Notes under the pieces: generated by a model
Told to the model about the DNA's origin: nothing
Seen by the model: only the letters and a program-made list of their open reading frames with translations
Databases searched by the model: none
Origin: Larimichthys crocea
Taxonomy: Eukaryota; Chordata; Actinopteri; Sciaenidae
Assembly (NCBI RefSeq): GCF_000972845.2
Contig: NC_040022.1
Coordinates: forward strand, 3,629,181-3,693,180
Length of the DNA: 64,000 nucleotides
Direction of reading: 5' to 3'
Part shown: one piece after another, positions 27,445-30,363 of the stretch
How the letters are laid out: every line of letters starts with the position of its first letter
Numbering within the stretch: position 1 is the first letter of the stretch
Program-made: the position numbers and the translations under genes

Positions 27445-30363
27445 GACCGTCCTCCTGCTGAAAATACTCACTGTGGATTAATGCACTGCTGAAAATAGTC
27501 CCCGACAAAAGCACCATTTACTGCTGTTTGAGTAACGTTTGTGAAAACCTGCAGTGAGCAGCTGCTTATTGACACTATATGTTTGTCTCGTCTCCAGTAT
27601 GGTGTCCAGCTACCTGGTGCATCATGGGTACTGTGCCACCGCAACAGCCTTCGCCAGAGCCACAGAGACGATGATACAAGAGGACCAGACATCAATAAAG
27701 AACAGACAGAGTGAGGGAAACCAGACTTCTAATCGCTTTGACATTGGACTGACGGACTCCTGAACTCATACTGAAGCTTCTTATCGTCACATAAAACCTT
27801 TGTCTGATATTAGATATAAAAGTGTTTGAAACCAAAGATGTCCAGCCTTAGATACTGAGGATTGTTTGTCCCGGATGCCCTGTCCTCTGTCAGACGTTTG
27901 CTGTGGAAGCACGGCTCCTCTTGATCAATACACTGTTATATTTATTTGTTTCTTTGTGTCTAATAGGAATACAGAAGCTGGTGCTGGCAGGACGGGTTGG
28001 AGAAGCCATAGAAGCTACTCAGCAGCTTTATCCCGGCCTGTTAGAACACAACCCAAACCTACTATTCATGTTGAAGTAAGTCGGCGTGTTTTTAAAGATG
28101 TAGGCGCTGATTGTTCGGCTTCACGAGGTGAACACCGCTAACAGCAGTGCGTGTTGCTCTTCAGGTGTCGTCAGTTCGTGGAGATGGTGAACGGTACAGA
28201 CAGCGAAGTTTGCTGCTTGACCATTCGCTCGCCCAAGTCCCAGGACAGTTACCCCGGTTCACCCAGCCTCAGCCCCCGCCACGGAGCCAGCAACACACAC
28301 CTGCACACCGGAGGTACGCAAACCAACACACACATGTACACCGGAGGTACGCAAACCAACACACACCTGCACACCGGAGGTACACAAACCAACACACACA
28401 TGCACACCAGAGGTACACAAACCAACACACACCTGCACACCGGAGGTACACAAACCTTTGTTCTTTCTGAATAACGACACATTGACGCAGATAAACTTGT
28501 AAACGACGGTCGTTTATGTAACCTTATCTCGATGACAGTCGAACGGCGTGAATGACGGTTGTTGGGGTCGCCTGAGGACCGCCGTGAACCACGGTCGTCC
28601 GAGGTAAACGACAGTCGTTCAGGTCGTCCGAGGTCCGGCGTGGTCGAGGTCACAGCCACCAGAAACGACGTCTTTTCCGTTAACCGTGTTTTTCCTTCGC
28701 TCAGGAGCAGACAGTCCGACCTGCAGTAACGGGGTCACTCCCACCAACAAGTCAAAGAGCCACAGCGGCGCTGGCAGCAGCAGCGTCAAATACCCCAGCG
28801 TGTCCTCCTCCGCCTCCTCCTCCACCTCCTCCTCCCCTTCCTCTGTCAACTACTCCGAGTCCAACTCCTCCGATTCCACTAAGAGCCAGCCGCACAGCGC
28901 CAACAGCACCCAGGAAACCAGGTAGGAAGGCCCGTCATGTGGGGCAGTCTGTCCACATCGTCCCGTCTGTCCTCGAGTTTAATCATCTTCATCGCGTGTG
29001 TGTGTGTAGTGACAGTGAGATGGAGATTGAAGCAGAGCACTACACTAACGGGGTTGTTGAGGGCTCCTCAGCGCGGATCATGAATGGGACGTACAAACAC
29101 GAAGAAATCCTTCAGCCTGACGACAACAGCATCGGCAACGGAGTAACAGGTACACACACACACACAGATACACGCCTACATCGCCAACAGTGGACTGTGG
29201 TTCAACACTGACCAAGTGGTGACTCTGATGTTACTGTGTGTGTTGCAGATGAGGGCTGTAATAACAACAGACAGCTGTGTGGAGGGAACCAGGCGGCCAC
29301 CGAGAGGATGATCCAGTTCGGGCGGGAGCTGCAGGCGCTCAACGAACAGCTGTGTCGCGAGTACGGCAAGAACGCCACGCATAAGAAGATGCTGCAGGTA
29401 CGCACACGCAGGCGCACACTCTTTGTCCCGACGATTAAAGTGAAACCATGACTTCTCCTGTAGGCTGGGAACAGGAGGAGCGTGACAGATGATCTTTAAA
29501 CTGAGTTCAGATCGGCCAACAAGCTTTCTTTATGAAACCGTCACTGAGGCGGCTGAAGAAAGTCAAGACAGAAAACTTTAACGACGAGTTAATAAAAGTA
29601 TAAATAAAAACAGGTTTGTGACGTTGGATCAAGACTTTTATAACCTCTGAAAACTATAGACTGTCTGGTAGGGCTGCAAAATTCTGGGAATTTTCAAAGT
29701 TGGAAACTTTCCATGGGAATAAACAGGAATACACTTTTAGAGCCCAGAACACACAGAGACTGTTGAAGACACACGTGAGCCCGTGGACTACGAAATATTG
29801 TTCAATAAAACAATATACATACAAATAAATGTTGAAATGTTTTTAATAGTTTTATTTTGCATGTTTGATTTGATTCAGTTTGTTTTAAATTACCCACAAT
29901 TCCCATGATTTGGAATATTCCCCAAATTCATGGAAAGTTTCCATAAATTTACCAGAAGCTTTCAGCCCCTTTGCAATCCTCCAAGAAACAGTTTGTTAAA
30001 CACAAACTCAGCCACCAGGGGGCAGAACTCAGCTCAGACAAACAGGACCGAGTTAAAGAGAGAGAGACAACAACAGTATCTGACCCTGTCTGTCCCTCTG
30101 TCCCTCTGTCTGTCTGTCTCTGTCTGTCTGTCTGTCCCTCTGTCTGTCTGTCCCTCTGTCTGTCTGTCCCTCTGTCGGTCTGTCTGTCTGTCTGTCTCTG
30201 TCTGACCCTCTGTCTGTCTGTCTGTCTGCAGGATGCGTTCAGCCTCTTGGCGTACTCCGACCCGTGGAACTGCCCCGTCGGTCAGCAGTTAGACCCGACA
30301 CAGAGAGAATCGCTCTGCTCCGCTCTCAACAGCGCCATCCTGGGTAAAGAACACACACACACC

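Follow-up and report, generated by a model that had tools for sequence, protein, structure and literature searches.

In Larimichthys crocea the conserved gene RANBP10 has, across the border of exon 9 and intron 9, a 33-bp tandem array of five units, each of which carries a splice donor in the same reading phase. From the letters of these donors and the comparisons given below, we consider it somewhat probable that the array is a young minisatellite in which the donor at 28314 is the main one, that at 28347 a low-level competitor and those from 28380 to 28446 rarely or never employed. Such an array would have arisen when the junction was tandemly duplicated in CA-rich DNA, with intron 9 gaining four units (132 bp, 28324-28455) at its beginning. 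The original donor would have remained the main splice site; unit 2, which kept an identical donor, would probably compete with it weakly, and its use would place 11 additional residues (TQTNTHMYTGG) directly ahead of the Ser-rich linker. Units 3-5, with A for G at +5, would seldom or never be spliced. Since the unit amounts to 11 codons, a slip to any downstream donor would keep the frame.

The RANBP10 gene and the array

Within the window (the whole 64,000-nt stretch of L. crocea DNA that was analyzed) we built a coding model of RANBP10 (Table 1). All 13 of its introns are of the GT-AG type, there are no internal stops, and Pfam recognizes SPRY, LisH and CTLH domains in its product. The best solved match of this product is RANBP10 (9soc, 1110.8 bits), and identity with RANBP9 was rejected on its lower score (7nsc, 928.7 bits); the top protein matches, among those listed, are fish RANBP10 sequences at 97-98%. 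The model thus joins SPRY, LisH and CTLH/CRA in one protein that is nearer to RANBP10 than to RANBP9. The gene, the exon number and the phase of the junction given in the first-pass annotation were right: in the 14-exon model exon 10 is joined in frame at 28705. When the genome assembly (657,852,213 bases) was searched, exon 9 with the array was found on contig C12 only, and the weaker matches (61-76%) on C2 are probably RANBP9. The mitochondrial ND2 of this assembly matches Sciaenidae best, being identical at 337 of 348 residues to a UniRef record that bears this family name and the code LARPO.

Table 1. Positions in the window of the RANBP10 features discussed in the text; a slash marks a splice point
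Feature	Position	Strand	Basis or score
RANBP10 coding model, 14 exons, 619 aa, start to stop codon, without UTRs	11490..30565	+	built here
Exon 9 with canonical donor	28165..28313	+	gene model; junction the same in relatives
33-bp tandem array, five units starting 28291, 28324, 28357, 28390, 28423	28291..28456	+	TRF, ungapped repeat finder
Donor 1 (canonical), GAG/GTACGC	28314..28319	+	PWM 3.14, 7th of the model's 13 donors
Donor 2, GAG/GTACGC, nine letters identical to donor 1; would add TQTNTHMYTGG	28347..28352	+	PWM 3.14
Donor 3, GAG/GTACAC, without +5 G	28380..28385	+	PWM -0.20
Donor 4, (CCA)GAG/GTACAC, without +5 G	28413..28418	+	PWM -0.20
Donor 5, GAG/GTACAC, without +5 G; predicted hairpin	28446..28451	+	PWM -0.20
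In-frame TAA, ends any intron 9 reading past the array	28472..28474	+	ORF
NAGNAG acceptor of exon 10, CAG/GAG/CAG, exon start 28705 or 28708	28702..28710	+	CAGGAGCAG at 28702-28710
Exon 10, codes for Ser-rich linker	28705..28921	+	gene model

TRF describes the array with a period of 33, 5.0 copies, a 93% match, 0% indels and a score of 290, and an ungapped repeat finder places it in the same register; a five-copy array with such a match led us to reject a chance string match. Its 166 bp form a minisatellite with donors, in that units of at least 10 bp cross the exon end and each contains a donor: exon 9 contributes its final 23 bases to unit 1 and intron 9 its first 10. The units differ at four columns, and copies 3 and 5 are identical; the alternation of column 11 (C, A, C, A, C) suggests growth by pairs. 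Three of the four variable columns change the residue, which is in keeping with the spectrum of possible single changes (71 nonsynonymous, 26 synonymous, 2 stop) and gives no sign of coding constraint on the array. In the one assembly searched the array occurs at one place. Four other places, on contigs C669, C20, C9 and C25, resemble the array region at 69-75% identity; they are probably CA-rich sequence.

An ordinary origin of the array is likely. The exonic part of unit 1, together with its upstream flank, encodes a peptide common to the relatives (HGASNTHLHTGG), so that unit 1 is most simply taken as the original to which the four others would have been added. The end of exon 9 (CAACACACACC) also resembles the start of intron 9 (GTACGCAAACCAACACACAC in L. 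crocea), a likeness that would make slippage or unequal exchange a ready explanation.

Nor is the overlap of an array with a splice site remarkable by itself. Seven arrays with a period of at least 10 occupy 5.9% of 11490-30565 (the TRF rows for this interval were entered manually), and when whole arrays are placed at random, 63% of trials put at least one of them on one of the 26 splice sites; an array of the length of this one lands there in 16%. We prefer this 0.63 to an alternative figure of 0.79 that treats the 26 sites as independent, and both are post hoc. The noteworthy parts are the retained identical donor and a repeat unit whose length is a multiple of three, the latter with a prior of about one third. 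In the same gene, a (CTGT)n array immediately precedes the acceptor of exon 13 and provides its pyrimidine tract, and the donor of that exon adjoins an (AC)n run (30086-30228, 30351-30397), so two further RANBP10 splice sites abut repeats.

Reading frame, donors and acceptor

All five GTs (28314, 28347, 28380, 28413 and 28446) are in phase 1, and the reading frame is open from 28142 up to the TAA. The first-pass annotation had seen one donor, CCGGAG/GTAC, copied at these five positions with no stop before 28475. AG/GT is indeed present at all five, but the fourth copy reads CCAGAG/GTAC; the frame is open through the array, but the stop codon had been misplaced by three bases. Its arithmetic was sound: with a unit of 11 codons and each donor joining exon 10 in one phase, splicing would add 0, 11, 22, 33 or 44 residues. 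What found no support was the idea of five comparable donors. The splice-site scoring that it had proposed, carried out here with a vertebrate donor matrix (PWM) whose frequencies, like the U1 sequence, were entered by hand, bears it out for copy 2, the only one to equal the canonical donor (both 3.14), but not for copies 3-5, which have lost the +5 G and at -0.20 fall below every one of the model's 13 donors. Among the 36 GTs in 28200-28700 the two best by this matrix are 28347 and 28314, whose flanks are also nearly alike; the third is GAG/GTAAAC at 28604 (2.95), which sits past the in-frame stop.

Neither U1-duplex energy nor local accessibility ranks the five donors. With free pairing the duplex energy is -5.7 at each of them; with a fixed register copies 1-2 come to -5.4 and copies 3-5 to -5.7, values that fail to favor the +5 G because the C at +4 breaks the helix before +5 is reached. 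Predicted accessibility runs from a minimum of 0.36 at donor 1 to a maximum of 0.60 at donor 4, and the hairpin predicted at donor 5 has an energy of -6.9 kcal/mol in a 40-nt window. The model itself has CAG/GTACAC as the donor of exon 11 and CAG/GTACGC as that of exon 12. Since exon 11 makes use of the former sequence and the U1 energies do not separate the copies, the matrix may rank donors 3-5 too low.

Exon 10 begins at a plain NAGNAG, with two AGs three bases apart and both junctions in frame; this second in-frame acceptor, three bases on, was absent from the earlier annotation. One-residue differences at the junction occur within species in the records of Lates calcarifer (P0044/P0061), Hippoglossus (P0008/P0057) and Limanda (P0060/P0062). 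Some relatives have records in which the Ser-rich linker is skipped or shortened, such as the NCBI isoforms from Genypterus (P0068), Chanos (P0092), Denticeps (P0102) and several flatfish (P0045, P0057, P0060); its length may thus vary by splicing of RANBP10 in other fish.

The junction in relatives

We compared 163 RANBP10-like proteins, made up of the best 120 of 1604 matches from one search and the best 120 of 162 from a second. The second was aimed at the region of the repeat peptide, and hence any protein carrying this peptide should rank high. The motif TH[LMI][HRQY]TG present twice, or GGTQ, was found in 0 of the 163 fetched relatives, and repeated six-residue words after EMVNGT were likewise lacking in them, with the exception of one VCVCVC run. 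These counts are to be read with the knowledge that clusters at 90% identity hide members and that most of the records are predictions.

The start of exon 10 is reached in 126 of the 163. In these, the spacing from EMVNGT to SP[TSA]C is 45 residues (4 records), 46 (17), 47 (103) or 49 (2); the plain form of the L. crocea model has 47, and one added unit would bring it to 58. The record of Nibea albiflora (P0128), a member of the same family, agrees with the model at every one of residues 186-539 (354 residues), junction included, and has no insert; over the whole record the alignment reaches only 78%, with gaps. Of the five donors, the original is the only one that the fetched relatives support. 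Protein records, that of N. albiflora included, do not tell whether the DNA of a species contains the array. One further record, P0039, which lacks the EMVNGT motif, was not included in either count; at the junction it reads HTGADSPTC, with no insert.

In the other 36 fetched relatives exon 9 is followed by something other than the exon 10 start (other exon 10 structures). A continuation of the form ..GGT.. is present in 12 of these (P0088, P0091, P0096, P0117, P0122-P0126, P0129, P0130 and P0134), which look as if the reading had run past the donor and entered intron 9; the Oryzias record continues past the donor as GGTHTHTHTHT. UniRef is the only source listed for these 12, and they may result from faulty gene prediction. 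The most that can be drawn from them is a hint that in other percomorphs too intron 9 starts with GTACN and, in some such as Oryzias, is CA-rich.

Competing explanations and known systems

Several observations favor our leading explanation, in which the donor at 28314 dominates: the array with its register, the donor letters, the gap in PWM score, the peptide that the exonic part of unit 1 shares with the relatives, the 47-residue junction that is commonest among the relatives (103/126), the insert-free N. albiflora record and the data on human tandem sites. At such sites, spaced by no more than 30 nt, the minor one is typically lower by a factor of ten or more, and of two sites alike in strength the upstream one is preferred, according to the available text of PMC8055015. 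The explanation that we favor is weakened by the failure of U1 energy to separate the donors, by the CAG/GTACAC of exon 11 and by donor 1 being the least accessible of the five.

A second reading, tentative and on the whole unlikely, is that the array is neutral for splicing: 28314 alone would be used, copies 2-5 would be an intronic minisatellite and the unit length divisible by three a matter of luck. The repeat peptide in none of the 163 fetched relatives, the three variable columns out of four that alter a residue and the prior of about one third are all in its favor. It is harder to reconcile with a second donor that matches the first in nine letters and nearly so in its flanks, and with the precedent of IFI6, whose donor-carrying repeats are used as described in the available part of PMC4526556.

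It appears improbable that the assembly has the copy number wrong, the array having been collapsed or expanded. Tandem arrays are a usual site of such errors, the assembly is in 9907 contigs and copies 3 and 5 cannot be told apart; but this array is short, both of its flanks read cleanly, and four columns vary among its units, column 11 in regular alternation.

The ladder of linker lengths proposed in the first-pass annotation, with all five donors appreciably used and copy number setting the steps, has in its favor five in-frame donors with no stop between them, equal U1-duplex energy in free pairing and a GTACAC in use at exon 11, but is made highly improbable by a PWM that puts donors 3-5 under all 13 model donors and by the lack of an insert among the fetched relatives. 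Slightly more doubtful again is its boldest form, in which germline copy number would set the number of in-frame donors and so produce fish-specific RANBP10 isoform ladders (0-44 Thr/His-rich residues with either of two acceptors, up to ten products) that alter the linker between the halves of a CTLH ubiquitin-ligase scaffold. Tuning of protein function by repeat length is a conjecture.

In IFI6 (G1P3, 6-16), a minisatellite with multiple splice donors was reportedly described by Turri et al. in 1995. The available text of PMC4526556 states that two downstream repeat units serve there as donors, giving three mRNA species. RANBP10 resembles this case in having a tandem repeat at an exon end with a donor in each unit; it differs in that use of the downstream donors is shown for IFI6 and is a prediction for RANBP10, and the two genes are unrelated. 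In its anatomy, as read from the DNA, the RANBP10 array joins the known principle of a minisatellite that supplies several donors.

Other systems offer partial parallels. The variable internal tandem repeats of human paralogs, as presented in the accessible part of PMC2812944, are likewise placed at exon-intron boundaries and able to change splicing, but they create novel introns in recent segmental duplicates, whereas RANBP10 is single at its locus and has an existing donor multiplied. Tandem alternative splice sites (TASS) and NAGNAG acceptors, in the portions available of PMC8055015 and PMC2279118, share with it close, in-frame sites of the same type, and the exon 10 acceptor is a NAGNAG; yet the donors of RANBP10 arose as repeat units, and their spacing of 33 exceeds the limit of 30 nt between successive sites that the available text of PMC8055015 sets for TASS. 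The repeats dealt with in the accessible part of PMC7536079 lie inside an exon and have no bearing on donors. As hnRNP L binds CA-rich RNA and can activate or repress splicing (PMC7708053, available portion), the repeat could itself be a candidate splicing element. Among the listed papers on RANBP10 and splicing, and in the accessible text of PMC12395873 and PMC9180843, we found no report of the RANBP10 repeat.

If the downstream units are used, the locus would be a clean experiment of nature on the choice that the spliceosome makes between near-identical donors at a fixed spacing, with two donors identical in nine letters 33 nt apart followed by three that differ mainly at +5. As all five keep the frame, their products would not be hidden by nonsense-mediated decay. 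Copy-number polymorphism is usual in minisatellites, and if copy number varies here as well, the size of an allele could be read alongside its ladder of isoforms. RNA-seq sets of L. crocea are deposited in SRA, according to PMC6773841. If the downstream donors are unused, the result would be a useful negative, in which letter-identical duplicated donors are ignored for the upstream one.

The window contains other repeats. The 42-bp tandem unit at 49142-49252 (with 49935) recurs at 59847-60345 (with 61025), and the reading frames that follow the two are similar (..CERSDAITREQCCSRERVSLPDTRQR..), as though a longer segment had been duplicated. There are also two large minisatellites, of 47 copies of 27 bp at 3389-4703 and of 28 copies of 25 bp at 9417-10118.
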